Origin: Rozella allomycis CSF55 | Taxonomy: Eukaryota > Rozellomycota | NCBI GenBank assembly: GCA_000442015.1 | Contig: KE560959.1 | Coordinates: 1-64,000, forward strand | Length of the DNA: 64,000 nt | Reading direction: 5' to 3' | In this document: positions 3,001-63,497 of the stretch, piece after piece | How the letters are laid out: each line of letters begins with the position of its first letter | Numbering within the stretch: the first letter of the stretch is position 1 | Position numbers and translations under genes: made by a program | The notes under the pieces: model-generated | Databases searched by the model: none | What the model was told of the DNA's origin: nothing | The model's input: the letters and a program-made list of their open reading frames with translations, nothing else

Positions 3001-3279
3001 AATAATGTCCAAGACATTGATGTGTTTTTCAAGTTCTGAATGAAAATACTCTACGTGTTGTAAAACATTCATATATATTTTTAAAACACCTATAATTGTA
3101 TTTTATAGAACATTTACTTGCTAGATGGGTTTTTTCAAAGAGAAAGTTTGTCAAAGGTCTTAAAAAAGGCAGTAAGCTTTGCTCATCTTCATCCTATTTT
3201 AGACGACAATTTTTTATACTTCACATTGCTTTTGTAGCTCAAGAACAAAATTATTCCAGCCGTTGTCGTCAACAGACAT
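1..3279 (-). CDS. ATR: ATR/Mec1/Rad3-family PIKK kinase, N-terminal part (runs off left edge)
   Basis: About 1056 residues of the helical N-terminal region of an ATR-type checkpoint kinase; the FAT and kinase domains would lie beyond the left edge. Exons on the minus strand: 3279-3220, 3193-3118, 3089-2626, 2598-823, 794-1. The four introns are 26, 28, 27 and 28 nt and all junctions keep frame. The family is shown by a UME-like stretch around 700-900 (FMNQIVSQMINFQKDKDLEK) and, nearer the left edge, GLIGAIDPERLEL and DKYAFTIQQVLKYLNI. These correspond to the 'LGAIDP.RLD' and 'D.AAYAIQELL' motifs of ATR. The start is the first ATG (MSVDDNGWNN) joined through two tiny 5' exons. ATR is recruited to RPA-coated single-stranded DNA and controls replication-stress checkpoints. 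The first 500 residues alone would not be recognisable. Assignment to ATR rather than TOR or ATM rests on the UME and AIQE-like motifs. Confidence 0.75.
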
Positions 3280-3325
3280 TCCAAAAATTTAAATTGTAAA
3301 ATCAAGAAATGTTAAATACACTGAT

Positions 3326-4486
3326 TTATTCAGCCAACTTCATCTTGATAACTTTCTGTTTCTTTGGTTGAATTGTATTGTTCGAGACTTTTATTGGCGT
3401 TGACAAAGGAACAGACTTGAATGATTTGATTTTAGGAGCAAGCTTCAAAAGTCTTCGAGCATAATTTGATTCCAAGAACATAGTAATCCCAAAAGACACA
3501 ATTCTTGATACAAAAAAGTATAACGCCATGCATGATGGCATCATCATGAAAAATGGAAAGAACAAGGCGGGCCCGTATTGTCGAATTTTCATTAAGAATT
3601 TGGAGTTTGACATACTTGGCATCGTTCTTGAACGTATAACCTAATAAAAATAAAATTAATATGTTACATTTTCAATGTATTGAAATAACAGATAACCTAA
3701 TGGAAGAATAAGGGTAAAATCAGGCTGAGTTAAGTCAGTAAACCACAAGTACCCTCCTGTGGTTAAAGATGGAATCATTGGAGTAGCAATGGCTTTAAAA
3801 GCAATAAAGTTACACATAGGGATGGCGGCATAACTTAACTTTATGAGCGTATCGGTAATTGTCGACAATTGGCCTCTTGAACGTTTCAACTTGTCCAATG
3901 CCCTCGTTCTTTCCCTTGCTTCTGCGAAATTCCTTTGCTGCTTCAGCTGATTAATCAAGGTTTGTTCCCTAGTGTATTCATCTAGATATGGTTTCGCTCT
4001 TTCTGTATTGCGAAAATCAATGACGTTCAAAGGAAAGTATGTCAAACGTGTAATAACTGAATAAATGACTATCTAAAAAATATAAAACCAAATGGATACT
4101 GCGTGAAACCAAGGTAAACCAAATGTTGAATGTAAACTTTCTATCCCCAACCGAAGCCAACCTATGGGACTCCAAAGGCTAATGAGTCCTAATGCCTCAA
4201 ACTCCGAACTAAAAGCTTCCGTCATTGGTTCTTCTAATTGCGATAGCTCTTGTTTAACTTTCGCGACGATATCAGTTGTTGATTCAAGTACAGAATTATC
4301 TGTTGAAACAGGTGTCATAGAAATCGGATTATCATTAATTGGATTAGTGGCTACATTATTTGCTTCAATTTTAGTTGAGAAAGCCCTATATGAGACGTTA
4401 TTACGACATATTAATGGATTTAAGTTTAATCTGCACCCGTTTAATGAATTGCATGCTCTCACAAAAATTCTTTGCCGGACAAACAT
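3326..4486 (-). CDS. OXA1/Cox18-family mitochondrial membrane insertase, copy A
   Basis: Three exons on the minus strand, 4486-4100, 4072-3668 and 3640-3326 (368 residues), with two 27-nt introns. The first join restores FHAIVIYSVITRLTYFPLNV, the family's 'GLPWW..I...T...R....PL' core. The N-terminus is basic and Ser/Asn-rich (MFVRQRIFVRACNS), as expected for a mitochondrial presequence. A coiled segment rich in Arg, Gln and Leu follows TM2, and further membrane spans come later (FFPFFMMMPSCMALYFFVS). Oxa1/Cox18 proteins insert mitochondrially encoded and conservative-sorted proteins into the inner membrane. A second family member lies 55 bp upstream on the same strand, so this is a tandem pair. 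I cannot tell which copy is the OXA1-like and which the COX18-like one. Confidence 0.75.
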
Positions 4487-11895: not shown

Positions 11896-14800
11896 ATGGA
11901 GGACATTGGCAATAAGCTCACAGGAGCCCTAGCGAGTAATGAAGTTAAACTAAAAACCATAAAAAATGATAAAATAAATAGAAAAAACAAAAAAATAACT
12001 GAAGCTGTCGACAGCATTGACAAATCGCTTAGAGACATCAAGGCGAGCAAAAAGCCGACCAAGGCATCCAATTTGATAAAATTTAATACGGAAAAACAGC
12101 CAGCTCAATTGTCATCGGTGTATTTGAAAGAAATAACAATGTCATTGGAGGACAGGTTAGCCTTATGCGGCAAACAATCGTCTATCCCTGAGATTGTTGA
12201 ATTTGTTGATATTGGAGAAAATTCTTGCCACAAGGAAACACAAGTGCCTGTTGATCAGCCTTTATTTCATGCCACACCATCAAAAGTCGTCTTTCAAAAT
12301 TTTGACCCGTTCAAAAAATATGAAGCCATGTTAAGTTTTAGGAATAGAGATAAGGTTGCCAGAAGATTAAAGGTAGAGTCTTTGGAAAGCCCATATTTTT
12401 CTGTTGTTCCACTAAAGTCTGGACCACCAAACGGAAGTAGAGTCGCCCCAGGGATGGAAATATGTTACATTCTTCAATTTAAACCTGAAGTGAAAAGAGA
12501 TTACTTTTGTCAAGTTGTATGTGTTACTGATCGTGAAAAGTTTGTTATACCTGTTGAAGCCAAAGGAAGTCGTGGGATATTGGACTTTCAAAATGAAATT
12601 AACTTTAGTGAATGTCCAGTTAAGTTTGTTAGCAATCATACATTGTATGTTAGAAACATTGGAAATGCACCTGCAAGAGTTATTATTGAAGCCGAAGAAC
12701 CTTTTTCAATCAGTCCATATCAAACAACGGTGATGCCTCAGCAAGCCGTTCAGTTTGAAGTTTCATTCTATCCCCAAGTATATAAGCTTCAAATTTAAAA
12801 CATAGTCTATTGGAAAATATGAAAAGTATATTTCCATTCTTTATGACACTGGTGAAAGTGTTATTGTCAAAGCTGTTGGTTCTGCTGAAGATGTAGCCGT
12901 CGGAAGTGAATCTGATATGTTAGTCATGAACAATACCTACATAGGTCTTGCTTCATCTCAAAATGTTCGCCTTTATAACAGGTCAAGAATTGTGGTAAAA
13001 ACTATTGCATGATTTTATAGTCTCGTTATCAATGGAAGCAGTTTCAAGATATGCAATCTGAATTGGAATACAAAAGACGGCAAATTGCAGAATTGAAGAG
13101 TGATGAAAAAGAAGGTCTTGTAAGAATGAGTGCGACAGAAAACTCTGGAGAACACTCACTTTTGGCGAAAGTTTATGAAAACAAGAAGCGTGAAATTGAG
13201 GAAGATTCATTACTTTATAAGGATCCTATTGTACAAATAGAACCAGTCCAAGGTGAAATATGGCCTAATTCATTTATTGATCTAACCGTTGTGTTCCAGC
13301 CTTCCAAGGCTTCAAAATATGTGAAGAATTTGTATCTGGATATGTCGGGTCGTCAAGATAGAATACCACTTATTGTTAAGGGAGTGGGAATAGGACCTAA
13401 AGCCAAGTTTGATTTCGATGTTCTTGACATTGAAGTTGTCTTCATTAACTCATCTCACATATATGAGCTATTACTTCAAAACAAAGGTGGAATTGACGTT
13501 CATTATTCGTTTGTAAAGTCTAATACGGCTTTTGGATCTTGTTTCCGTTTTGAACCAGTAGAAGGTGTTGTTGATTTTGCAAAATCTCTGCCTATCAAGG
13601 TATATTTTGAGCCTGACAAACTTGGTCAATTTCTTGAAGACTTTTATTTGCAAATGAGAGTAAATATTATGGATGTAGCTTATTGTAGGGATCTGATGAA
13701 ACGGTTAAACTAACGATCAGAGGTAATGTCGTTGGACCCACGTTTGAGTTTAATCACAATATCATTAATTTTGGAGTTGTATCTTTTGGATTCCCGTATG
13801 AGAAGAAGTGTCTTTTGAAGAATACGTCTGAGATCTACATGGATTATTGGTTAAGTATAAGTCCCAATTTGGACGAGGAAATTTCCTTTCATCCTGCCAA
13901 AAGCAGTTCAATACCACCAGGAGGAACACAAGAGATAACTGTGAAAATTCTTTCAAAACAACAGATAAAATATAATGCAGATTTGATCGTAAATGTTGAA
14001 GGAGTTGGTGAAGACATCTACAGAGTTCCTATTACAGCGGAGTCAATTATTCCAAATGTAAAGAATGTATTAATTGTTTAATAGGTTATTTTGAAAGATG
14101 AGTCCATTGAGCTTGGTGATTGTTATTTAGATTTCCCATATGAAAGTGAAATCATTCTTGTTAATCAGACGAATCTTCCTGCACGTTACAATTTAGTTTC
14201 AGAGGCAGAGATTGAAGATAATATGTATCATTTCAAAGCTAAATCCACTTCCGGGATTATTCAACCTGATTCTTCTATAGCACTGGGTTTCGAAGTAGTG
14301 TACAAGCAACTTGGATCTATTCAATTTTCACTGTTCATAGCAACTATGGGCCAGGAGAGCCATCCATTAGAGCTTTTAATTTCTGCGTTTGCATGTGGTC
14401 CCAAAGTGTCAGTCCCGATAACCAAAGTTGATTTTGGAAAGGTCAATGTACTTTCTCCTGTGCATTCTACTATCCAATTGATAAATGAGTCATTAATTCC
14501 AGCCAATTTTATTTGTGATTTGGGAAATCCATATTCAGTTTTTCAAGTTGAACCATCACGTGGATGTTTGTTGCCCAATGAGAAGCTAGATGTTGCAATA
14601 ACAGCCTTTTTAGATGATAATCTCAAATTCCAGGATACTCTTAAAGTTGGTATTCAGAATGGTAGTGTGACAAATGTTGTTTTGACAGCCAAAGGAAATG
14701 GTTCAACTATTGTGTTTGATGAAGATATAAAGAGAATCAGTTTTAATGACATTTTTACAAACAAAGTTGCTAGACGCGAGTTTTCTTTGGTGAATCAAGG

Positions 14801-17800
14801 AAGAAGAGCGCAGATTCTTACATGGACAATGGAGGAAGTGAGAGGGGCTATGAAGGATGTGGTTTCAAAGGGATCTAGTTTGTTCTCTGTTATTCCAAAT
14901 AGATTTCAAGTTAATCCCGGGGAGCATAAAGATGTTGTTATTGAAGCGTTTTCAACTGTTGCTATTGATAATTGTAAGCAAATGATATTGTGCAGTTCAT
15001 CCATTGACAAAGATCCATCAAAGCATTTGATTCTTGCTACAGAAGTGAGTGCCACATTTGTAAGACCTCTAGTTCATTTATCTACCGAGAGAATATACTT
15101 TTATTCAGAGCAGGGTGTCAATTCCAAACCAGGTGTATTGTCTGAGCCACTTGTATTGAAGAATGTTTCATCGCTTCCATTAGTAGTGAGTATGACAACT
15201 GCATCGCCGTTTTCTATTCTCCCGTATAAATCTGAATATATTTTACTTCCGAAAGAAGAAGAGAAGCTAAAGGTGTGTTTTGATCCTAATTTTATTGATA
15301 CCAAAGAGTCTTATGAGCAGTCTGGCAAGATTTTTGTAGCTTACAAGGATCATCCACAGAAAGACACGATTGAATTGATGGGCAAAGTGTGCTATCCGAA
15401 TATCTCCGTTTCTGTGAGTTCTTTGGATCTTGGGTGTGTTGAGCCAGCTATTGAAGCTAGGAAAAAGTTTACAATAACTAATACTGGAGTATTGCCTGTT
15501 GAATATGACTGGTCGTTTGAAATTGAAGAGGATTATGAAATCAATCCATTTGACGTGTTGCCTTTGCGAGGTAGTTTACCGCCTGATGAGTCTATTGATA
15601 TTGAGATTAGTTTTAGTACATTGAAAGTTGGAGAGTTTAAGTCTGTTGCGGTTTGCACAATCAAGGGAGGACCTGTTTATAATATACCGATTTCTGTTGA
15701 GACTTCGAATGCTAGTTATGAATTTGATACAAAGATTGTAGATTTTGGAAAAGTGTTGTATCTTGATGTAGCCGAGAGAGTCCTTTGTTTGATTAACAAT
15801 GGAAGACTGCCACTTCCATATAAATGTTATTTTCCGAGGAACAGTACACTTCCATATAGGACATTGATTAACCCAGAGAGTGGCGTGTTGATGCCATTTA
15901 AAGTTCAGAAATTCTCTGTAAGATTTTGTCCATGTTTGCCTGATGTGATTAATGGTTATTTTCTTGTGCAAATAGCGAATGATGAGCCTGTGAAAATAGG
16001 AATACAGGGGCAAGGGATGTTTTCGTTTATGAGATTTAATTTGCCCGCGAGCAATTCTAATGAGTATAGTGGGTTTATGGATGAAGCCAAGGAGATATTG
16101 AAACGGGAGGGATTGGATGAGCCAGAGGAGCAGGAGATTGAGACTGAGGCGATCCGACTGATGGCCAAGATGAAGGTTCTGGAGGTTACTAAAAACCCTG
16201 ATTTTCAAAAGAGTGTGAATATGCATTTGACTAGTTTTGGCAAATCATTGAGAAAGAAGAATATGACAGAGACGTCTATGGAGGGGCTAGGATTGAGTAA
16301 TTTGAATTTTATTGATTATGTGTGTGATTTTGGGAATGTGATAAAGGGCACTAGCAGGAAGAGGGTGTTCAAGGTGACGAATCATGGACCGTTGCCAATG
16401 TCTTTTTCTATGGACAAGAGTGTGTTGAATGGAACTAATTTTGTAGTTGAGCCTGACAAGGTGCGAGCGTTGGGGTCTATGGAGTCTACAGAGATTACGA
16501 TATCGTTTGTATCAAAGTCTACTGTTGAGGGCAAGTCTGAGGTGAAGATACCGATATCTATTGGCAATGGAACGGGTGTTAATTTGATTATAAAGGCGAA
16601 TGTAGCTGTGCCTAGTATTGAAGTTGGCACGACTGAACTGAATTTTGGGGATATAATGTATGGCCAGAGAAGAAGGAAGAGTTTTGAGTTGAGTAATAAG
16701 CATCTGGTGCCTTGTGAGTGGAGTTGTAGTTTGGTGTATTATGAGGGATCAGCCAAACAAAGGAAGAGAAAGAATGATGCTAGTTTGAGTGATTTTGAGA
16801 TATTTCCAGAATCGGGGGTGCTGCAGCCGAATGAGAATTGCGAGGTTAGTGTTCAGTTGACGCCATCGAAGCCCAAGCGATACGAGTATGAGTTGCAGTT
16901 GAAGATTGGCAATAATCCAAAGCCATTTGTTATTCCGGTTACTGGACTGGCGTACAAATCCATGATAAAGATTGAGCCGAACAATTTAAAGTTGCCGCCA
17001 GTGTTGCCGTATTCAGAGGGTGTGAGTGCAATGTTTTCTATAGAGAATGTGACTAACCATGCGTGTGAGGTTGTGTTGTTGGAGTTTGATAAGCAGTATA
17101 GAGAGGAGGATGAGATTATGAAAAAGACTGGAATGTTTAAAGAGGGTCCGTTGTATTTTCCGCCAAGAAGGCTGGGTGAGGGACTACCGCAGGAGATTAT
17201 AGATTTGCTGCCTGTTGAAAAGTCGATGGAGAATGTTAGTTGTGGGCAGAATGATGGGGTGTTGTTGGAGGAGGAGATTGGGAGAGTGCGAACCATGTCG
17301 TTTAGTGTGTCTAGACAGAATTCAGTGAGCAAGGGGCCGTCGCCAGTGAATGTGATTATCCATGGGCCGCCGTTGTCTGGAAAGACGTTGCAAGCGAAGA
17401 AGATTGCGGAAGAGTATGGGTTGAAGCATATTCATTTTGATGATATTGTTGATGAGTTATTAGATCGAGACAAGGAGAACAGGGAGAAGGAGAACAGGGA
17501 GAGGGAGAAAGAGAAGGAGAGGGATAGAGAAAAGGAGAAGGAGAAAGACTTTAACAAAGACAAAGACTCCAATAAAGACTTTAATAAAGAATCCATTAAA
17601 GATGTTAATAAAGATTCCAATGTAAAATTTGAGGTTGATAAGTTGCATACGTCATCTTCTAATGTGATTGGAGGGAATGTAGAGTTGGGAGAAAAGATAT
17701 ATCAAGTGTTGAGAGGCATAAAGAGTGAGAATGTAGTTGAAGAGACGAGTGTAGAGTTGAATGAGGGATTCCAAGTGTGTGAGTATCCATTACCGTTTGA

Positions 17801-20800
17801 TTTGATTGTTGAGATTTTGAATTTCTATTTGCAAAAGAATGATTTGAGTTGCAGTGGATTTGTGTTTGATGGGTTTGATAGCAAGTATATTCAAAGGCCG
17901 ATTCAGTTGTTTAAGGAGATAATGAAGTTGATACCTGATAAGAAGAATACGCATTTGATTGTGTTGAATGTTAACAAGGAGACGATTATAGAGAGAAGAG
18001 AGTTGAGAAAGCAGATGATTATTAAGAATGAGAAGATGTTGTTGAAGGAGTTGGAGGTGTTGAGTGAAGAAGAGTATGAGAGGATGAGTGAGAGTGAGAA
18101 GAAGGAATTTGATAGTAAAATGAAGGGGATTAAGAAGAGAATTCAAGAAGCGATGAGCAACAAGCGAGAAGAGAAGAGAGACAGAGAAAGAGAAGATAAA
18201 AGAGATAAAGAGGAAAAGAGGGATGATAAACTTGATAAAGATAAAGAAAAGTTGCTGATAAAGAAGGATAAAGAAAAGAATAAAATAAAGAATAATAAAA
18301 ACTTGAATAAATCAAAGATTGAATTGGATCAAATTGAAAATTCACAATCTATAATATTTGAAGACAAGGTTGGCATTTCATATGAATTATTCTTAAAAGT
18401 GAAGCAAGAAATATTAGAATTTATTAAAGAAGTAGAAAAGAATAAACAACAAAACCAAATTAATGTAAATGAAAACAAAAAGAAAAAGGCAAATCATCAT
18501 GAAGCAGTTTCACCCTTTGAAGAAACGTTGAAGGAAGAATTAATGATAAATATTCATGAGATTGAAGGAAATAAAAATGAGAAATTGATTTATGAAGAAA
18601 TTAAAAGTTTTCTGCCGCAAATTCATTTGAAGGTTGTTGAAAGTGAAGAGATTGTGTTGCCAGGGTTTCAGCCTGTTGATTTATTGGAGCAATCTTATGG
18701 GTTTGTTTCTAGTGGTGATGAATATAAGATTGATAAATCATTTCAAGTTCAAATTGAAGAATTACAAGAAGAGGGAGATAAGGGTGATAAAGGAGTTGAG
18801 AGGGTTGAGAAGGGAGATAAAACACTAGATAAGACACTAGATAAAACAATAGAGAAAGCAGTAGACAAGACACTAGATAAATCACAAACACAAACACTGG
18901 AAAAGACTACGTTGAATACTATTGCTAATAATTCATTTCAGAATACAAAGATAATAGTTGAAGAATCCACAAGTGAAAAGTTTAGATGGATTTTCAAACC
19001 AAAAGAGAAAAAGAATTTCACGTTAAAGTTGTTTGCTAGTAACATTGGAAGTTTTGAACAAATATTCCATTTCAAAGTGAATGCCAACAAGGAAACATTT
19101 GATTTAAAAGTTGTTGGTGTTTGTGAATATTCCTTTATAAGTTTTGACTACAAGAAGCTATTCACTAAATGGAGAAAGAATAGAGAAGATTCATCAATCA
19201 TTCAAAAAGAATACATTCTGCAATCTAATACATTTGAATTTGGTCCATTATCTATTAATAAACCACGAGAGAAATCAATTGAAAGAAATCTGGATAACAG
19301 AGCGACTATAAAGATTTATAATCCATCAAATTCTATTGTTAAAATATTGTTTTGTTTTAGATATGATTTGAAGCAGGAATTATTTCAGTTGGAGCCAAAT
19401 CAAATGGAGTTGAAGCCGAAAGAAGAATTGGATTTGAATATTTGGGCGTTTCCTAAATCACCGGGAAAGTTTGATGATTCTTTGTTGTTTCTTATTAAAG
19501 ATAATCCTGAAGTGTTTTTTATTAAATTGACATGTTTTGGTGTCAAACCTGAACTAGAAGTTGACAAAAAGGTAAGAGTTTTAGAGGGAGGTTACAAATA
19601 GGTAATCAAAGTGTTTAAAGGTTACAAATAGGTAATCATAGTGTTTGAAGGTTAACAAAGGTAATTAATTCTCTTTAAGTCTCAACTAGGTAATTAATTC
19701 ATTTCACCTCTCAAATAGGTGGTTCAGTTTGATAGGTTATTGCTGCAAAAGGTTGATGTGAGAGAATTAAAGATTAGANCCACTATAATGTCTGCTGGAT
19801 GGAAACTAGTGGGACATGAATTGCTTGGTGAAGAATTTGAAGTGTTTCCTGTTGAAGGGGCAATTGAATATGGAAAAGAAGCGACTGTGCAAATTAAATT
19901 TAAAGCAATGAAACCAATTGTTATTAAAAGAGCATTAAGATTAGAAGTTTATGACTTGGAGAGAATAGGTAAATTAAGAGTTGTAAGGTTATATAGGTAA
20001 TTAACGAGTTGTAAGATTATACTAGGTGATGCTTACACTTCTTATTCAATGTAGGGAATCCGTTGCAGTCAGATAATATTATTGTTACTGCTGAAGCTTA
20101 TGACATTTCAGTTGACATTCACTTTCCTAAAGGATGTGAAGGTGGATTAGATTTTGGTGTATTAAAAGTATTTGAAGAAATGAAACAAACAATCACACTC
20201 AAAAATAAAGGTAACAAAGAGTATTTAGTTCTTTCTAGGTAAACTTAATTCTCTTTAATTCTTTCTAGGTAAAATTAAATCTTAAACTCTATGAAAGGGA
20301 AATATGAAACAGGGTTTAGATTTGTGTTTGATAAGGATCAAAGTGAATTCATAACAATTAATCCAACATCTGGACTATTAATTCCATCAGAGAAAACATA
20401 TCCAATCCAAGTCTTGTTTAAAGGAAACAGAGAAATCTATTTAAAAGATTGTTTGAATCTAAAGTGTTTAATAACAGAGCCATCAACCAATGAAACAATC
20501 GTCACAATTCCAATCAAAATAAACGCAAAATCTGTTTTCAGCAAATACTCTATAATCCCAACAAGAGATTTAAACTTTGGATCTCTAGTGTATGGCTCCA
20601 AGGGAAACAGACAAATAATCATTGAAAATTTGGGTGAATACGATTTCAAGTTTAGTTTGATTAGAGGTGAAATAGATTCCCTAGCTGCATTCCCCTTTCC
20701 ACGAACTGGCAGCAAAACTAGAATGAATGCGGGTGGATCGTTTATGAAGAAATCGCACAGACAGTCTTCAAATTCACCGCCGCCACTAAGATCTAATTAT

Positions 20801-23800
20801 CGCAAGGAAGGAATAAAGAATGAGTCGCAAGTTGTGTCGAGTCCTTTTTCATTTTCAGTGTCTAGTGGGTCTATATCGCCTGGCAGTCGACAAATTGTAA
20901 ATATTGAGTTTCATCCAGAGAATCCGGGGAATTTTGAAGAAATTATTAATATTGACATTTCTGACAAGGGTTCCAACAGCGAAGGTAACATATGAGATTT
21001 AGAAGTGAACATAGGTAATATATGAGATTAGTATTTAAAATAGGTAATAAAGAAGCTTTAAATGTGAACACAGGTAATTTTAATTGTTCCAACTAACTGC
21101 AAGGAAGCGAGTATAAATTGATGGGAGAGTGCTGCATGCCAGGTATTAATAATACAGACTATTCATCCATCTTTGAAGAAAATTCCGTTAGAAAGAGAAT
21201 AGATTCACTATTTAACCAATCGTTTGTTTACATTGAAGATGAAAAGGTGTTTCATTTTGGATCTTTTCTTGTTGGTCAAATTGTTCAGTCTAGAATAAAG
21301 ATTAGCAATCCATTCAAAGTTTCTTGTGAAGTTTTGATTAATGTTAAACCGAGAAGTAAATCTAAAAATGATAGCAATGATTTTGCATTTGATGTTGAGC
21401 CAAAGAAGATTTTATTGCCCAGTCATGAGCACAGGTAATCAATTGGTTATAAGGTATAATATAGGTAATCAAATGGTTTAAATGTAATTAAGGTAACTGT
21501 TTAATTCTCTTCATTATCATTAGGTAACTGTTTAATTCTTTCATTATCATTAGGTAACTGTTTAACCTTCTTTAATAATAGGTTTGTTACGTTGTCTTTT
21601 CATCCATTGGCTATTCAAACTTATCAAGGAATCTTTGAAGCATTGGTAGAGAATATTCCAGAATCAAAATCAAAATCATTATTGTTTGAATTGAGAGGAG
21701 AAGGTACTCTACCAAGAATAACAATAGAAAAACCAACTTTAAAATCCAAGAATGGAAATCNCAACGTTAAAATCCAAGAATGGAAATCCATTACTAAAAT
21801 TTAAGAAAACATTAATTGGAAATTTACAGCAAATGTCAATAATAATTAAAAATGATGGAATAATCCCATGCAAAATAAAATTTGAATTTATTTCTTCTGA
21901 ATTCACAGACTTTGAAATGGATCAACTAGTTCCACTGATCCAACTATCTCCAATGGAAATAAAAACATTCAATATCAAATTTAAACCAACAATTGTTAGA
22001 AAATATGAAAGTGAAATTAAACTAAAAGTTTATGATAATCATTTTGAAGATTCATACATCCAAATCCAAGCAGAAGGATACATGGATGACATTTCAGTTG
22101 AAGATTCATCCGATGACACTTGCAATGAAAATGAAATTGTGTTGAGAGATTGTTTGGTTGATAAGAAACGCATAGAGTCGTTTGTTCTTCGTAACAATAC
22201 TTCAAATTATATTAAATGCACGCTTGGTCAGTGTAATGAATTTGTTTTGAGTCCATCTGTTTTTCATATTAGGCCGAGAGATATTAAAAAGGTTTTTGTG
22301 CAATTTCATCCAAAGCAGCCTTGTAGAGTTTCTGCTGTTGTTAATTGTAGTTCTAGTAGGATAAAGTATAATGTTAATTTGCCTCCTGATTTTGAATGGG
22401 ACAACAGCAGAGATAGAGATAGAGATTTTACAAGAGAGATTAAAGACGTAAAAGAAGTGAGGTCTAAACAAGGCTTGAGTGAACCTTCTTATAGTGTTAT
22501 TGAAAATTCAAATTTTACTCTTCCACTTTCTATTCAAGCTATTTCTGATTATGGTGATTTTGAACTTGAAACAAATTCAATTCAATTTAAAACTACTTTA
22601 ATGTTTCAATCTAGAGTATTTTCATTTCCTATAAGAAATACTGGCAAAATTTCTATTCCATTTGAATTCTATTTCACTCTTGATGATTCCACAATGACTA
22701 ATTCTTCTACAATTAATTCAGCTGTGAATCCATTTACTGTTAATCCATCAAATGGAACTATTTTAGCTGGTGAATCTTTATTAATTACAATCAAATTCCA
22801 ACCAATAGAAGTTGATGATTATTCTCTCTTTCTTCATTTAAAATTATTAAATCTTTTACCTGGCAAATCTTATCCAATAATTCCAATAAGAGGAAAAAGT
22901 TTGAGACCACTTTGCCACTTTGAATTGGAAACTAAAGATTATTTATTCGACAGCATTCAAAATTTAAGTAATTCTTTGGATCCAAATACCCGGGTTATTG
23001 AAATTGAAACTATAGGAATTAAAAAAGTAAATTTACAGATTAGATCTATAATTTAGATTATTAAAAATTTTTATATTTTGAATCCAACTAGCATCACTTA
23101 TGACTTTGAATGGGTTAAAGAAGGAAACGAACAAGGCAAATTGAAATGTTTAACAAGGCAGGGAACAATTGTTGGTGGCAAAAAGAGTGAAATAATATTT
23201 GAATATTCACCCGACAATATCGATGTATTAGAAACATTTTGGAAATTTAAAATTCCATCTCAAAATATTCAAATTCCATTCATGATTTTATGTAGATCTT
23301 TGGAACCTTCAATCTACTTTGATAAAACAAGTGTTAATTTCAAATCTATTCTAGTTGATTGTCCAGTTAAGGAATCATTGAATCTTGTCAACCAAGAAAA
23401 CATTCCATTTTATTTTTCATTCAATGATATTCTAAATGAAAATTCATCTGTTATTCAAATCAATCCGAATTCTGGGTTCATTGCACCTAAATCTGAACAA
23501 ATTATCACTGTTATGTTTCAACCGAGATCTGAAAAGATTTATAATTACAATTTAATCTGTAACGTTAGAAAGAAACCAAATCCACTCGTTATCAATATTA
23601 AAGGGGAGGGGTACTTGATCCATGAAAAAGTTTACTGTCAGAATGTTGATAATTCGCTTTATTTACTTTCAAACTCTGATTTTAATTTAATTGATTTTGG
23701 TAGAGTGTTTTTAAATGCTAAAAGTTCTAAAAGAATCACAATCAAAAATGATGGCAGATTTCCTTTTGATTTCTCTTGGAAAATTAAAGGAAACAAATCT

Positions 23801-26431
23801 AACTGTATTTCTATCAACCCGGAATTCGGTAAAGTAGGGAAAGATGAGATTGTTAATTGTGATATTGATTTCTCACCAACTGTTCATGTGAATCTCAAAA
23901 ATGTAACAGCTGTTTGTCAAATAAGCAATGGAAGGCAATACACTCTCTCATTTGAAGGTATTGGCGCTAAACCTAATCTATTAATATCTGAAGATTTCCA
24001 TGATTTCGGTCCTTGTTTCATATTCAGACCTGGCATGAAACCACTAGAACATCGATTCAAAGTTACAAACAAGGATGAAAAGGAAATCTCACTGGATGTT
24101 TCAATTTCAAATTCATCTGCTTTTGAAATAAATGCATTTGGTCCACCTTGTATAGCTCCCAACGCATCCACATTTATTACTGTATTGTTCTTTCCAAGAG
24201 AAGCAACGAAATACCAAGAATATTTAACTGTTGATATTAATGGACTGTCTAAAACTAAATTAACAGTCTCTGGTGAAGGAGTTGACATGAATTTGGATTT
24301 GGCGCATTCCGATCATAAAAGCATTGGATTCGGTGCCGTTAGAGTTGGCCACGTTGTCACTAAAACAATAAAACTAGTCAACAAGAGTATCATCCCTGTT
24401 AAATTCAATCTCGGTACTACATCTGTTATTGAAAAATTGTTGAAGAATTTTGTCACCTTTTCGCAAACACAGGATATTACTATTAGACCCAAAGGGTATT
24501 TCAATCTAGAGTTCAAGTTTATTCCAACTGTGCGGGTTCAGCCATTCTTTGAAGAAATCCATTTCGAGTGTCCAGGGTATTCAAAGCCGTTGTTTGCTGT
24601 GCATGGTGCGTGTCATGGCATTGAAGTGAAGATTGAAAACCAGAATATATCGTTTGGCGCTGTTGTATTAAACAGTTCCAATGCACGCAAAGTTCAGTTG
24701 AGAAATGTTGGCGATATTGGTGTAAAGTTTAAATGGGATGTTTCAAGGTTCTATCCACACTTTAGCATCACTCCATCGGAAGGATACATTTCATCTGGAA
24801 TGGAAGTGCCTCTAGAATTCACATTTCATCCCAAAGAATTGGACCACGATATTAGATTAGATTCCATTCCTTGTTTTATTGAAGGTGCTAATCCGCTGAC
24901 TATTAATCTATCTGGTGTTTGTATCCCGCCAACTATTCAAAGTGAAGTTTTGAAATTTAGTACAGCGGTTAGAGAATCTGATGTTAAACAGATTCCATTA
25001 ACTAACAAATATCCATTCACTTGGATGGTTAAACCGGTTATTGATAACGAGTTTTGGTCTTGTTTGGAATCATTGGAAATAGAAAGTGGCCAAACAAAGC
25101 AGCTGGAAATTGTGTACAAGCCTCTGCAAATGACAAACGATGAACACAAACATGAAGGTTCTATTTTCATTCCCCTGCCTGATGGCTCTGGAATGCTGTT
25201 TAGGTTGCTGGGTACTGCTGATAAGCCAACTGCCGTAGAATCACACACTTTGGAAATACCTTGCAAGACTCATCACGTTCAATCTCTTAAAGTTCAAAAC
25301 TGGCTGAAATCCTCACAAAGATTCAAAGTTGTCATTGAACAAGCGAAAACAGATCTATCAGTTCTACTCAAAGGCCATTCTTACATTGATATTCCGCCAT
25401 CAGCAGCCTACGATTACAAATTGAGCTATTTCGCTTACAAGGAGGGGCTATTCAACGTTAAAGTTACTTTTAGAAATGAAGATACAGGAGAATACTTGTT
25501 TCACACACTGCAATTCAAATCAACGCCGCCAGCTGTTTCTGCTGTATATGAAATGTCAACTATAGCCAGGCAACCTGTTCTGCAAGAGATTTCTATTCTC
25601 AATCCACTGCCAATAACAGTGTCGTTCAATGTTACTTGCACACATCCAGATGTAAACTGCCCCTCTCAATTCAATATCGCACCAAGGTAATCCAAGCATA
25701 TTAAGATTAATAGATCGGAAGGTATTTGCACGGTTGAATTTCTGCCACTTCAAGCAAAAGAATCGTCCACGCGCGTCACTTTATCTTCTAATGAACTGGG
25801 TGTCTACAACTACGACCTAAAGCTGATCGCCACTCCAGCTGGCCCTGAAAGAAGTATCCAATTCAAAGTATCACTAGGTGCCTCCCAAACTCAAAGCTTC
25901 AGATTCACAAGCTATGCTAAATCGAAAATTGAATATTTATGCAAAATTGATAGTCCAGACTTAACTTGTGAAAAATCTGTCATTGCTCCGCCAGGTAATC
26001 AAATGAGTTTAAGTAAATTAGCTCTTGCTTCGGGCGGCGTTGAAGTTGTTATCGATGTTGTCTACGAACCTTCAAAATTAGGTGATACCAAGTCCTTTTT
26101 ATCTGTCTCCTCGCCCCAAGGTGGTGATTATATCTGTCCACTGATTGGACACTGTATCGCTCCTAAACCACAAGGTCCGTTTACTATAAAGGCAGGCTCT
26201 TTTGCGTCCATTCCTTTTAAAAATGTTTCTGCGCAGACGGCAAATTTCATCATGACAATTGACAATGTAAATTTCACTGTAAAGAACCAGGAATCTATCG
26301 GGTCAAAAAAGATGGTGCACATCAATGTCAATTATAAAGTTGTCAATTCGAAAGCGCCAAAGACGGCTAAAATGGTTGTTAGTCAGGTGGGGTCGAATGT
26401 TCAATGGATTTACTATCTTAAAGGGATTTAA
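11896..26431 (+). CDS. HYDIN: HYDIN, central-pair apparatus protein of motile flagella
   Basis: Thirteen exons, about 4585 residues (human HYDIN is about 5100): 11896-12777, 12806-12994, 13021-13659, 13689-14057, 14085-19571, 19719-19968, 20055-20210, 20298-20984, 21104-21434, 21582-23026, 23057-25686, 25714-25994, 26022-26431. The N-terminus has HATPSKVVFQNFDPFKKYEA and CVTDREKFVIPVEAKGSRG. Dozens of ASH/MSP-type beta domains follow. The adenylate-kinase-like domain is at 17340-18060 with P-loop IIHGPPLSGKT, and the end is VQWIYYLKGI as in the family. HYDIN sits on the C2b projection of the central microtubule pair and is needed for flagellar beating, so the organism makes motile cells. Seven introns are ordinary (26-30 nt); the five between 19571 and 21582 are multi-unit arrays listed separately. 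The ADK domain holds Lys/Glu/Asp-rich inserts. A contig-join artefact near 21761 disturbs the frame, and one ambiguous base is at 19779. Confidence 0.96.
17452..18906 (+). repeat. Charged low-complexity inserts within the HYDIN ADK region
   Basis: Three stretches of HYDIN coding sequence are made almost only of Lys, Glu, Asp, Arg and Asn: about 17452-17640 (repeats such as ENREKENREREKEKERD and NKDSNKDFNKES), about 18160-18310 (REREDKRDKEEKRDDKLDK) and about 18780-18900 (DKTLDKTLDKTIEKAVDKTL). The DNA shows matching short repeats. They interrupt or follow the adenylate-kinase-like fold. They are probably flexible or single-alpha-helix linkers grown by slippage; no function is known to me. Confidence 0.75.
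19572..19718 (+). repeat. Tandem intron array A in HYDIN (five GT-AG units)
   Basis: Five abutting units, 19572-19601, 19602-19631, 19632-19660, 19661-19689 and 19690-19718 (30, 30, 29, 29, 29 nt). Each starts GTAA and ends AG, with no base between units. Removing the whole block joins VDKK to VVQFDRLLLQK in frame (phase 0), which matches HYDIN. Units 1-3 share the end GGTTACAAATAG or a variant of it; units 4-5 share the start GTAATTAATTC. Each unit is the size of a normal intron in this window. Confidence 0.9.
19969..20054 (+). repeat. Tandem intron array B in HYDIN (three GT-AG units)
   Basis: Units 19969-19996, 19997-20025 and 20026-20054 (28, 29, 29 nt). Units 1 and 2 share AGTTGTAAG followed by TTATA. 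Unit 3 starts GTGATG, the only donor in the HYDIN arrays that is not GTAA. Removal joins ERIG to NPLQSDNIIVTAEAYD in frame (phase 1). Confidence 0.9.
20211..20297 (+). repeat. Tandem intron array C in HYDIN (three GT-AG units)
   Basis: Units 20211-20238, 20239-20268 and 20269-20297 (28, 30, 29 nt). Units 1 and 2 end in nearly the same 12 bases (GTTCTTTCTAG and ATTCTTTCTAG). Removal joins LKNKG to KYETGFRFVFDKDQ in frame (phase 1), the 'LKNKGKYE' motif of a HYDIN domain. Confidence 0.9.
20985..21103 (+). repeat. Tandem intron array D in HYDIN (four GT-AG units)
   Basis: Units 20985-21014, 21015-21043, 21044-21073 and 21074-21103 (30, 29, 30, 30 nt). Units 1 and 2 share ATATGAGATT; units 1 and 3 share the end GTGAACA.AG. 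Removal joins GSNSEG to SEYKLMGECCMPG in frame (phase 1). Confidence 0.88.
21435..21581 (+). repeat. Tandem intron array E in HYDIN (five GT-AG units)
   Basis: Units 21435-21464, 21465-21492, 21493-21523, 21524-21553 and 21554-21581 (30, 28, 31, 30, 28 nt). Units 3, 4 and 5 all start GTAACTGTTTAA, and units 3 and 4 also share the end CATTATCATTAG. Units 1 and 2 start GTAATCAA. Removal joins SHEHR to FVTLSFHPLAIQTYQ in frame (phase 2). Confidence 0.9.
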
Positions 26432-26541: not shown

Positions 26542-27765
26542 TCAAAATTCTTCATCCCCTTTCGGAAATGAATTAGACGTGGGGAATTCTCTAATGTCAC
26601 CTTGGTTTCTATCATAGTTTGATGAATATCTTCCTATATGCTGCACAATATTTGGAACTATCAAATACTGCGTCCATTTATTGAAATTCGCAATGTCATC
26701 CAATAGCATATCAACAGCTTTTAGTTTTATCATTCGGTTTGTATCCAGCTGATTGGAATAGTAAAATAAGTTTTCAGATATTGCCTTGAGATGTCTCTTA
26801 GGGTATACTTGTCCTACCAAAACTGACAGAGAGTTTGGGATCTTTAACAATCCGGGTGTAGTTCTCTGTGGAATTAAAGCTTGTTTAGATATTAAATACA
26901 TCAATGAATATATCACCAAAATAAAATATAGCCATATGCCAAGATAGTTATGCCATTGTTTTCTTCCGTAAATTTTCCTTATACCCAACGTAATGGCAGC
27001 CGATAAACAAACTGAAATTAATAGCATCACACCAAGATCATCCAAAGACCATCCATCAAAAATATCAGGGTAAAACAGTTTCAAAGCATACCAATTGGGA
27101 TCGCCAACATTAAGATCTTTAACGGACTCGACTATTCTTTCATAAAAATCTTTAGAGACTATCGCGTCATCTTGCAAAACCAAAAGATAATCTGAAGAAA
27201 GTTTCTCGTATGCATAGCGGGCAACAGAAGCATAATCAAAGATTTCATGTCGATACCATTTTCTATGATTGGAACCTTTCCAATCATCAAATGAACCTAT
27301 TTTAAATATCTCGTCCATCACATTGATAATGTTCCCGCGTGTTTCCAAATTATAGTCTCTGCCATTTACAATCGGCAGTATATTAAGGGCTTTGTTGTTC
27401 ACCAGATAATTATTGAAAGAGCTATTTCTGTCATTATTAAACAAAATGACATTAACTTTGGCATCTTCAGGTATTCTTGACAGCAGGTACCCCATTGTTC
27501 TGATTAAATACATTGATGTTCTTCTCTGCTTTGTTATAACTATAACGTCTAATAAAGTATTTGTATATAAAGGTCTTTTGGGTAGATCATGAAGGAATTT
27601 TAAAGAATTCTGGTATGATATTGTTTCCCGCTCTTCTATTTCAGACATTGGAGTCAAATAGAAAGCACTGTATTTACAATTGCGACCCAGATAGAAAGAT
27701 ATTGAAAACAGAAGAGAGTGAATAGTCAGTATTAAAGCATAAAAAGATTGACTTTTCCTTTTCAT
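26542..27765 (-). CDS. PGAP4/TMEM246-like GPI-anchor glycosyltransferase
   Basis: One uninterrupted frame of 407 residues. There is an N-terminal membrane anchor (residues 8-25). A split GT-A domain follows: LLDVIVITKQRRTSMYLIRT, SSDYLLVLQDDAIVSKDFYE with its DD metal-binding motif, then WYALKLFYPDIFDGWSLDD. Two closely spaced membrane helices (about residues 250-300) are inserted in the domain. After them come SVLVGQVYPKRHLKAIS and YLIVPNIVQHIGRYSS. This order, with a transmembrane pair inside the glycosyltransferase fold, is typical of PGAP4, which adds GalNAc to the first mannose of GPI anchors in the Golgi. No intron is present, unlike most neighbours. A decayed copy of the 3' half lies about 350 bp upstream of the start. 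Confidence 0.7.
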   Translation of the reverse strand: MKRKSQSFYALILTIHSLLFSISFYLGRNCKYSAFYLTPMSEIEERETISYQNSLKFLHDLPKRPLYTNTLLDVIVITKQRRTSMYLIRTMGYLLSRIPEDAKVNVILFNNDRNSSFNNYLVNNKALNILPIVNGRDYNLETRGNIINVMDEIFKIGSFDDWKGSNHRKWYRHEIFDYASVARYAYEKLSSDYLLVLQDDAIVSKDFYERIVESVKDLNVGDPNWYALKLFYPDIFDGWSLDDLGVMLLISVCLSAAITLGIRKIYGRKQWHNYLGIWLYFILVIYSLMYLISKQALIPQRTTPGLLKIPNSLSVLVGQVYPKRHLKAISENLFYYSNQLDTNRMIKLKAVDMLLDDIANFNKWTQYLIVPNIVQHIGRYSSNYDRNQGDIREFPTSNSFPKGDEEF

Positions 27766-28717: not shown

Positions 28718-30525
28718 CTACTCTAGTAACCGCCAGGAGAAATTTATCATCTTCCAAATAGCCTTTCTTGGAAGCGTGCCAAAGAGCTTAATTTCTTCTG
28801 GATCTGTTTTGGAGTCCGCTAACAAAACCTTAACAACTTCGGCATGACCGTTCTCAGAGGCACATCTAATAGCATAATTACCCCAGGCACTTGGATTAAC
28901 TCTAGAATCCTTCAGCAAAGCTTTCACAATTTCAACATGACCATACTCAGCAGCACGAACAATAGATTCATTGTACCTGGCTCCAGGATCCACTCTAGCA
29001 TCAGTTAACAGAACTTTGATGACTTCCAAATGACCGTTCCTGGATGCATGTCTAAGAGCATAACTCCTTCGTACACTCGGGTCTATTTTAGGATGTGTTA
29101 GCAAAACTTTAACAACTTCATAATGACCATTGGCAGAGGCACGCCTAATAGCATAGTTTCTTCTTACACCTGGATCTACTCTAGGGTCTCCAAGCAGAGT
29201 TTTAACAATTTCGACATGGCCAAACTCAGAAGAATGCATAATAGATTCATTGTACCAGGCCCCAGGATCCTCTCTAGCGTCTGCTAACAAAGTTTTAATG
29301 ACTTCCAAGTGACCTTCCTTGGAAGCATACCTACTAGCACAATTGACACCGAAATTTGTATCTACTCTAGGGTCCGCTAGCAAAAGCTTAAGAACTTCTG
29401 CATGACCGGCTTCAGAGGCATTACCAATAGCGTAAGTTGGATTCACTCTCGAATCTTGTAGCAAAATTTTAACAATTTCCACATGACCGTTTTCAGCGGC
29501 GCGTATAATGGAATAATCGTCTCGAGCGTCAGGCTCTACTCTAGGATCTGCCAGTAAAAGTTTAACGACTTCTGCATGGTTGTTCTCGCAAGCACGTCGA
29601 AAAGCATAATTGCATTCTTGCGTTGGATCTACTCTCGGGTCTGTTAGCAAAATCTTGACGACTCCGGCATATCCGTCCTCTGAAGCAACTTGAATGGCAA
29701 AATTTTCACCTGCGCTTGGATCTACTCTGGGATCTTCAAGCAAAATTTTAATAACTTCCGTGTGATTGTTCTGGCAAGCATCCTGAATAGCAATATTTTC
29801 CCAAACACTGGGATCTACTCTAGAATCATCCAACAACAATTTAACAACATGGGCATGGCCATTCATAGAAGAATATCGAATAGCATAATTGTCCTCTAAA
29901 GTGGGGTCGACTCTAGAATCGGCCAACAACATTCTAACAACTTCCACGTGGCCATTTTTAGAAGCATACTGAATAGCAGAATTTTCTCTTGCACTTGGAT
30001 CTACTGTAGCATGTTTCAACAAAATTTGAACAATTTCTCCATGGCCGTTTTCTGAAGCCAGCTTGATAGCTTCATTATCACATGCGCCAGGATCAACAAT
30101 TGGCAAAATAGGTTTCGTTTCATACTTTTGATTACACCTTCTAATCTGCCTATCATCGATCATGAGTGATACGTATTCTATGATTCCATACTGGCACACA
30201 AACTGAAAAGCATAGTTTGCACTTTGCGGAGAATTGGATTTTCCTACTAGAATGTTCAGAAAATTGACCAGCCTTTCACATATTTCGCTATTATGTAGGA
30301 TTTCAGTGCAAGTATCTATGCTGAACAATATGCCACATCTATGGTCGATTATTTTTTGAATAATATATGGGCATTTCCACGAGCAACAAGTTTCTGGAGA
30401 TTGATGAAGGACGGAATCCAAGCAAAGTGAACGAAGCCAGCAGATGCTCTTGAGATTTTTTTCACGTCATTTAGACTTAAATGCGACAAAATTATGTGCC
30501 AAACCTCAAACGGGAAGTGTTCCAT
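28718..30525 (-). CDS. F-box/ankyrin-repeat protein, broken by one frameshift
   Basis: The start MEHFPFEVWHIILSHLSLND is an F-box-like motif, which in other proteins docks to Skp1 of SCF ubiquitin ligases. It is followed by about 14 ankyrin repeats with a 31-residue period (for example DPSARENSAIQYASKNGHVE, VVRMLLADSRV). Repeat 8 is four residues short. The F-box frame ends at 30349 in FKK-stop just after an A6 run; the ankyrin frame overlaps it, shifted by one base. One extra A in that run would join them. No GT-AG intron of suitable length fits. So it is either a sequencing undercall, a -1 shift, or a recent lesion. Upstream codons to 30693 lie antisense to a tRNA gene and are not counted. 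A related truncated gene lies at 62811. Confidence 0.75.
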
Positions 30526-62027: not shown

Positions 62028-62726
62028 TTAGAAAATAAAGCGTTTTGGAGGCGTATAACCTCGTTTAGTTACTTCTTGAATCTTATCAAGCACTCTTTTT
62101 AAAATATTTGCGTTAAAATTCAAAAATCTTATGTCAGAATACGGCAATAAGCTTAAGGAATCAATAATGCTTTTTTCAATTAATGATCTTCTAATTTCAA
62201 ACCACTCTGCATTTCCATTGTGAGATTCATAGACAATCCTCTGAAATACATCTAATATCTTCTTATATACAGGCATGTAGTGAGTATTGGTTCCATTTAT
62301 ATTTTCGAAAGTACACAAATATTCAGGAAGACCAGAAGATGATAAAATTGCGTAAAATAATTCATATACCTTTGATAGTAAATATTCGTCGCCAAATAAA
62401 AGCTTTTGAAGCACTTTTAGACATTCAGCCATCATTCCATACTTCCTTAAAGCTGTTAGTTGTTCAATACAATTTGTAAGTATGAATATCTTTAGCTCTT
62501 TTAATTCATCTTCGATGTACTCTTTGTTATTCTCTATGATGTTGAGAACGGTTGAATATATGAGTAAACTAAAGGTAGGGTTCAACTCATGGTATAAGAG
62601 ACTCAACTCTGATAATACATTCACAGCAAGAATGATATCCTCATTACGAGACTTTAAAACCACAATCAACTTTTCGGATAGCTTTAACGTACAATTAAAC
62701 ATACTGCCATTATTCTCCNCAACCAT
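62028..62726 (-). CDS. Unrecognised helical protein, possibly truncated at its 5' end
   Basis: An intronless frame of 232 residues, helical and rich in Leu, Ile and Asn (ILAVNVLSELSLLYHELNPT, LLIYSTVLNIIENNKEYIED), ending SDIRFLNFNANILKRVLDKI then TPPKRFIF. I do not recognise it. The ATG is seven bases from an N at 62719 and just upstream is an ankyrin gene that also lacks its start, so an assembly join may have cut the 5' end of both. Confidence 0.55.
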   Translation of the reverse strand: MVXENNGSMFNCTLKLSEKLIVVLKSRNEDIILAVNVLSELSLLYHELNPTFSLLIYSTVLNIIENNKEYIEDELKELKIFILTNCIEQLTALRKYGMMAECLKVLQKLLFGDEYLLSKVYELFYAILSSSGLPEYLCTFENINGTNTHYMPVYKKILDVFQRIVYESHNGNAEWFEIRRSLIEKSIIDSLSLLPYSDIRFLNFNANILKRVLDKIQEVTKRGYTPPKRFIF

Positions 62727-62810
62727 AAAAGCGGTAAATTTCTAAACATAAAAACTTGCACGAATATCCTTGCATACGACGAAAAGGGCCTGTTGAGTTT
62801 CCTGAAAGTA

Positions 62811-63497
62811 ATGAAAGGAAAACGTATTTCTCAAAAAACTGTTGATTTCGCGTTTCAGTTTGCTTATGCTTATGGTCTTACTGAAATTGCTTGTAACCCA
62901 AAGCTATTTATTGTTGAAAACAGTATATTACCGGACCCGTCATCAAATGATAACTATGCGATATTGACCGCTGCGTATAATGGGTACACTGACATTGTTA
63001 AATATCTACTAACTCAAGAAAGAGTAAATCCAGGTGCAAAGGAAAATTATGCTATTCGAGATGCTGCTATAAAGGGGCATACGGAAATTGTCAAAATGCT
63101 GCTCGCCGATTCTAGAGTAGATCCAGCTGCAAATGACAATGAGACGATTGTTAACGCTGCCGATTATGGTCATCTGGAAATTCTTAAGATGCTGCTGGCC
63201 GATCCTAGAGTAGATCCAGGTGCCAGTGAAAATAATGCTCTTCGCTTGGCCTGCAAGGAAGGTCATATTGAAGTTGTTAGAATGCTTCTTGCAGACGCTC
63301 GAGTAGATCCTAGTGCCCGAAGGAATCAAGCTATTCGAACTGCAATAGATTATGGGCGTGCAGAAATTCTTAGATTGTTGCTTGAAGACTCTAGAGGAGA
63401 TCCAATCGCGAAGAGGACTCAAGCTATTCGAAGTGCCATCAAGTATGGAAATGCAGAAATGGTGCAAATTTCGTTGGAGTATAGCCTATATCATTAA
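62811..63497 (+). CDS. Ankyrin-repeat protein, 5' end missing
   Basis: The open frame already exists at 62763 (ILAYDEKGLLSFLKVMKGKR), with the first ATG at 62811. About six ankyrin repeats of 31 residues (DPAANDNETIVNAADYGHLE, ILKMLLADPRV) closely resemble those of the F-box/ankyrin gene at 28718-30525. The lead NYAFQF/DFAFQFAYAYG motif is shared too, but the F-box is absent. The last repeat decays (MVQISLEYSLYH). It may be a partial copy, a gene cut by the N-marked join at 62719, or a shorter paralogue. Confidence 0.65.
   Translation: MKGKRISQKTVDFAFQFAYAYGLTEIACNPKLFIVENSILPDPSSNDNYAILTAAYNGYTDIVKYLLTQERVNPGAKENYAIRDAAIKGHTEIVKMLLADSRVDPAANDNETIVNAADYGHLEILKMLLADPRVDPGASENNALRLACKEGHIEVVRMLLADARVDPSARRNQAIRTAIDYGRAEILRLLLEDSRGDPIAKRTQAIRSAIKYGNAEMVQISLEYSLYH

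Follow-up and report, generated by a model that had tools for sequence, protein, structure and literature searches.

Head-to-tail arrays of complete minimal introns in HYDIN and at many loci of Rozella allomycis

HYDIN and its five intron arrays

The stretch analyzed here (the window) comprises 64,000 nucleotides of the rozellomycote Rozella allomycis CSF55 (assembly GCA_000442015.1, contig KE560959.1, positions 1 to 64,000 of the forward strand) and carries a gene for HYDIN on the plus strand at 11896..26431. The gene was recognized from its open reading frames, gene prediction, Pfam HYDIN and ASH domains, and a match in one stretch to a solved HYDIN. Five of its introns are composed entirely of short units, each with the splice sites of a complete intron, that follow one another head to tail with nothing between them.

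The first of these arrays (147 nt, phase 0) holds five units of 30, 30, 29, 29, and 29 nt, at 19572-19601, 19602-19631, 19632-19660, 19661-19689, and 19690-19718. The second (86 nt, phase 1) has three, of 28, 29, and 29 nt (19969-19996, 19997-20025, and 20026-20054), as does the third (87 nt, phase 1), with 28, 30, and 29 nt (20211-20238, 20239-20268, and 20269-20297). Array 4 (119 nt, phase 1) is made of four units of 30, 29, 30, and 30 nt at 20985-21014, 21015-21043, 21044-21073, and 21074-21103, and array 5 (147 nt, phase 2) of five units of 30, 28, 31, 30, and 28 nt at 21435-21464, 21465-21492, 21493-21523, 21524-21553, and 21554-21581. All lie on the plus strand, and division into units of 28-31 nt leaves no remainder in any of them. 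Nineteen of the 20 units start with GTAA and one (20026-20054) with GTGA, all 20 end with AG, and each of the 15 internal junctions reads AG|GT, an acceptor juxtaposed with a donor in the manner of a ratchet point. A sequence-only reading of the window had reported these five arrays of GT..AG units, and every unit was found again at its place.

When all five arrays are excised, the HYDIN exons fall into a single frame; the phases claimed earlier (0, 1, 1, 1, 2) and the restored frame were both re-derived. The spliced stretch gives one continuous match to the solved HYDIN 9ijj_4G (query 11-736) that spans all five junctions. Against a second homologue, P0002, the junctions of arrays 1, 2, 3, and 5 are gapless, including the residues NKGKYE at array 3 and HEHR/FVTL at array 5, and that of array 4 has a small gap. 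A query with one HYDIN exon alone found no homologue, probably owing to the length limit of the search. Reading through the arrays meets stops in all five, and retaining one unit alone gives a stop or a frameshift for 19 of the 20, the exception being 21044-21073. With GT..AG borders in 20 of 20, frame and homology restored on removal, and U2 and U6 RNA genes found in the genome, the HYDIN units look like U2-type spliceosomal introns. The homology over the five junctions, together with the same layout at many other loci, bears out the proposal that these are complete minimal introns separated by exons of zero length.

The Ns closest to the arrays stand at 19779 and 21761, and none lies within the five. 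The N at 21761 is flanked on both sides by a near-duplicate of ~28 bases (21729-21807), and the HYDIN frame is broken there; single Ns of this kind look like joins of unmerged overlapping contig ends. Beyond the break at this assembly join, more open HYDIN frames follow up to 26431. Upstream on the same strand, gene prediction places the ATG at 11896 and single introns starting at 12778, 12995, 13660, and 14058. Between 17430 and 18910, the gene contains charged, low-complexity tandem repeats rich in K, E, D, and R, adjoining a segment that we read as adenylate-kinase-like.

Next to HYDIN, at 26542-27765 on the minus strand, the window encodes a predicted protein about 90% identical to a partial Rozella protein over its first half and 100% identical over its last ~118 residues, as if through gene conversion, a paralogue, or chimeric assembly. 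A single-exon gene close by has a 95% match over 239 residues to ROZALSC1DRAFT_30541 of R. allomycis CSF55. Open frames at 28718-30466 (minus strand) and 62688-63497 (plus strand) were read as ankyrin-like repeats, with tandem repeats of 93 and 279 bases. The genome also encodes a TLC-family nucleotide transporter and has chitin synthase matches at four places, both of which fit this species.

Recurrence across the genome and intron size

The sequence-only reading described head-to-tail arrays in HYDIN. They are present there as described, but they are not a HYDIN feature and occur genome-wide. Junction patterns were counted on both strands of 213 contigs (9.97 Mb), whose long open frames read in the standard code, with the reversed pattern as control. 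The pattern AGGTAA-(20-25)-AGGTAA-(20-25)-AG, which corresponds to a spacing of 26-31 nt, occurs 218 times, compared with 30 for the control; with a third AGGTAA added, the counts are 112 and 2, and the matches lie on at least 25 contigs. When the gaps are set to 14-19 bases (20-25-nt spacing), there are 3 matches versus 31 in the reversed control.

Finer counts come from a 299-kb sample, made up of 184 kb of the window's contig (C101) and 12 pieces picked for holding arrays. We scanned it for chains of at least three AG|GT sites with a donor of GTAA, GTAG, GTAT, or GTGA and a spacing of 25-33 nt. The scan returned 44 chains, at least four pairs of which represent the same place assembled in two versions (152747/152643, 153811/153706, L029 6827/7045, and L022 2422/2291); of 20 order-2 Markov shuffles, 17 contained no chain and three contained one each. 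The longest chain, at L027 5169-5399, consists of seven units flanked on either side by AG|GT, to which an eighth can probably be added. The genes interrupted by arrays include conserved ones; among their predicted proteins, Pfam identified DNA gyrase B (topoisomerase II), dynein AAA_6, a family-B DNA polymerase, a glycogen debranching enzyme, and a cation ATPase, and our reading of others added HYDIN-like proteins and one more dynein heavy chain. For example, the full AAA_6 profile (1-327 of 327) matches residues 89-415 of the predicted dynein protein, and the array falls at residue 94. It is nearly certain that the head-to-tail architecture in this genome is real and recurrent.

An assembly could, in principle, produce false tandem copies from collapsed or stitched reads. 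Single Ns mark joins of unmerged ends, some of them within arrays, and some unit counts are unsafe. Tandem Repeats Finder, which is blind to splice sites, reported 68 repeats with a period of 25-33 nt; 46 overlap arrays, and the other 22 comprise two that are arrays by inspection, seven that span an N of this type, and others in stretches predicted to be coding or intergenic (two touch a single intron). However, the units differ in sequence, the HYDIN arrays contain no N, many loci agree, and stitching is not expected to hit AG|GT every time. An artifact of this sort is therefore very improbable.

The topoisomerase II gene, a gene on contig C87, and others have two array versions with differing units around single-N joins. 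Exon and array stand in two side-by-side versions around an N, differing in unit sequence or number, at L021 (~3100-3500), at L029 (6825-7170), and on C101 near 151139, 152661, and 153719 (L017). The paired versions are possibly alleles, strains, or paralogues, and the arrays seem to capture introns in the course of multiplying, with more than one version present in the same assembly. Array matches also often seemed to lie less than ~10 kb from a contig end (C27, C65, C82, C87, C99, C152, and C169), and the arrays may simply be breaking the assembly. Two-fold TTAGGG is absent from C101 and the 12 other pieces.

Intron sizes were estimated with a simple purpose-made gene finder, the splice-site matrices of which were trained on 24-31-nt introns; introns in predicted genes of fewer than 60 codons were excluded from the counts. 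A run with flat lengths (15-400 nt) gave 242 introns, with 119 at 26-31 nt, 13 at 32-53 nt, 11 below 26 nt, and 99 above 53 nt. Once the model also allowed 25-33-nt units, singly or in chains, the 299 kb yielded 262 single introns, 32 arrays, and 18 introns of free length; several of the latter hold Ns or an apparent intron together with an overlooked exon, and two or more contain unparsed arrays. Nearly all single introns measure 26-31 nt. Forbidding free-length introns lowered the score by only 46 of 6929. We take the introns above 53 nt to be arrays, overlooked exons, or non-coding sequence, because hardly any of them persist in the model with units and arrays. As far as so simple a model can tell, introns here would consist of one unit or a whole number of units. 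This setting superseded a first one with 23 arrays, and it still misses arrays found by the chain scan (e.g., C101 near 152-153 kb, L027, L029, and L030).

No clear branch-point motif was seen in the predicted introns. The idea that acceptor type separates units into two classes of length was abandoned, as single introns ending in TAG and AAG are equal in length. The statement in the sequence-only reading that unit size equals that of ordinary introns needs correction, as units are slightly longer than singles (mean 28.7 versus 27.6 nt), with those of HYDIN averaging 29.3 nt.

How arrays may grow and how they may be spliced

Related units are found mostly side by side. A similarity above 0.4 was reached by 36% of 94 adjacent pairs and 12% of 84 non-adjacent pairs in the same array. 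Between arrays, the share was 2% of 700 pairs on the same piece and strand and 0.1% of 8575 pairs elsewhere, and shuffled units gave 0% of 3000. Similarity is thus highest between neighbors and falls with distance, and therefore local tandem duplication is likely the main source of units; neighboring copies more alike than distant ones are what intron multiplication by tandem duplication predicts.

Units might instead have been inserted as excised or mobile introns, by reverse splicing or in an introner-like manner, at AG|GT sites that include the borders of existing introns. Exonic AG and GT flank 17 of 32 arrays compared with 7 of 262 single introns (2 of 7 and 2 of 148 on C101 alone), many arrays mix seemingly unrelated unit families, and acceptor type differs between first and last units, all of which would suit insertion. 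However, AGGT at both borders amounts to a pair of short direct repeats separated by the length of one intron, and thus a natural slippage site, so that the flanks predispose to slippage as much as reverse splicing into AG|GT fits them. The sharp drop of similarity with distance and the 0.1% of unit pairs elsewhere above 0.4 also argue against this route; among the chain units of the 299 kb, there are few of the related copies at unlinked positions that would characterize introner-like elements. We regard insertion as quite unlikely.

The acceptors within arrays are not used evenly. A TAG acceptor closes 140 of 262 single introns; in the 32 arrays, it closes the first unit 29 times and the last unit 12 times. 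Paired within arrays, TAG is found first and not last in 17 and the reverse in none. The exon after the last unit starts with GT in 18 of the 32. Three explanations can be considered: internal acceptors may have to be stronger; the array may have started from its last unit, with the others added upstream; or the last junction may need to stay distinct, since the following exon often starts with GT.

A further question, left open by the sequence-only reading, is whether the units are removed stepwise or all at once. An array could be one longer intron that carries a minisatellite and leaves in one step, from first GT to last AG, with the internal AG|GT as relics of duplication. Neighbors are often near-identical, so many arrays would be young, which suits this explanation. 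Introns made up of 24-nt tandem repeats with AGGC are reported from fission yeast, with expressed sequence tag support that is partly uncertain (PMC3629103), and human genes are reported to have an excess of introns sized as a multiple of the surrounding repeat (PMC10809524). Against this, the gene model hardly needs undivided introns of array length, and a difference between first and last acceptors of 17 to 0 is unexpected for relics. The junctions themselves have also been kept. With redundant repeats discarded (overlap above one half with a better row), 41 of 42 non-overlapping array repeats retain every AG|GT, and the exception spans an assembly N. Among repeats with a match of 85% or less, junctions are intact in 17 of 18, compared with about 2.9 roughly expected under drift; among the 20 repeats of this period that are not arrays, no array in an intron was found to have decayed or to have lost a junction. 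In the dynein array, two assembled versions of equal length differ by 7 of 29 and 1 of 29 positions, with no change in GTAA or in the last seven bases. We consider the single-intron explanation unlikely. Units are probably recognized singly and removed unit by unit, because almost no undivided array-length intron is needed, because AG|GT junctions are kept in diverged repeats, and because the dynein versions spare the GTAA and the last seven bases. The retained junctions bear on recognition rather than on the order of removal, and they are compatible with a one-step exit of some arrays.

We therefore propose an explanation in which the spliceosomal introns of R. allomycis would be held to about 26-31 nt, and one intron may multiply in place, through tandem duplication that stays in register with the AG|GT at either border, to give two to about eight complete introns. 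Slippage between AGGT repeats is the putative route. Each unit has a correctly spaced donor and acceptor of its own and would be recognized individually, presumably leaving as a lariat of about 29 nt; every splice would create AG|GT anew, until the two exons are joined. We put the probability of this combination as a whole, from size-held introns through in-register duplication to unit-by-unit removal, at roughly 0.7.

Several points weigh against it. Array units differ from singles in acceptor choice and by ~1 nt in length (28.7 nt, n=100, versus 27.6 nt; p about 1e-6), and the two are not simply interchangeable. About 64% of adjacent pairs have a similarity of 0.4 or below, so duplication is unsupported for those. 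The 99 of 242 flat-length introns above 53 nt are replaced, nearly all, by a model trained on 24-31-nt introns. Most loci outside C101 were chosen because arrays were present, the drift expectation is rough, and the junction rows are restricted to arrays defined by AG|GT. The single-junction pattern GTAA(22)AGGTAA is not enriched (79 versus 105 in the control), and a single junction thus carries no signal, which takes at least two. Unit-wise removal is inferred from DNA sequence.

A more detailed version of the proposal is tentative, and we hold it to be rather doubtful. Here, a hard size gate near 26-31 nt would have chains of up to about eight adjoining introns processed singly in a set direction, with an internal TAG|GTAA signaling that the chain continues and a terminal AAG that it ends. 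Unit number would vary between alleles as in a minisatellite, and the arrays would act as an evolving splicing delay.

Comparison with known systems

Among the best matches in the open-license literature, which leaves most subscription papers outside, no chains of complete minimal introns and no Rozella arrays are described; as far as searched, such chains are undescribed. The main text of two rozellid papers does not contain the term intron. Tiny introns are reported from Stentor, Paramecium, Nyctotherus, and mikrocytids, and the accessible part of the Stentor paper has nothing on arrays. For Rozella, one source gives 2.5 introns per kb and relates the lineage to the intron-poor microsporidia (PMC8476143). 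Across a whole genome, the arrays form a natural experiment on the lower limits of intron length and spacing and on whether a spliceosome can handle zero-length exons repeatedly in succession, and they bear on how intron sequence grows while each piece stays spliceable.

The sequence-only reading had named AGGT tandem duplication, stwintrons, and ratchet points as parallels, and these are the right ones to consider. Stwintrons of fungi are several U2-type introns at one position that are excised consecutively (PMC7138796). However, they are nested, a splice signal of the outer intron being interrupted by the inner one, whereas here units abut, no signal is split, and every unit has a complete donor and acceptor. 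Under the Rogers model, tandem duplication of an AGGT provides both splice sites, and tandem repeats arise in genes (PMC4974935, PMC3629103). That model turns duplicated exon sequence into a new intron, whereas in Rozella complete introns would multiply within their own position. UBC and VCX3A are also similar, in that an AGGT array with dual-specific sites, each serving as donor or acceptor, gives introns that are multiples of a unit (PMC10809524). Those repeats are coding and variably spliced; the units described here bring in stops or frameshifts (19 of 20 in HYDIN) and have to be removed.

A complex twintron of the Euglena plastid is reportedly excised as four introns, so that several introns are removed separately at one position, but these are plastid introns, said to be of group III, and not spliceosomal. 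At the ratchet points of recursive splicing, an AG|GT within a long animal intron serves as acceptor and then as donor, and stepwise removal is demonstrated with RNA. The likeness to the arrays lies in AG|GT sites inside the removed sequence and in segment-wise removal, which we infer here. The difference is that ratchet points divide long animal introns, whereas in Rozella each segment is a complete intron of ~29 nt, with up to about eight adjoining. If units are indeed removed singly, recursive splicing would not be only a device for long animal introns.

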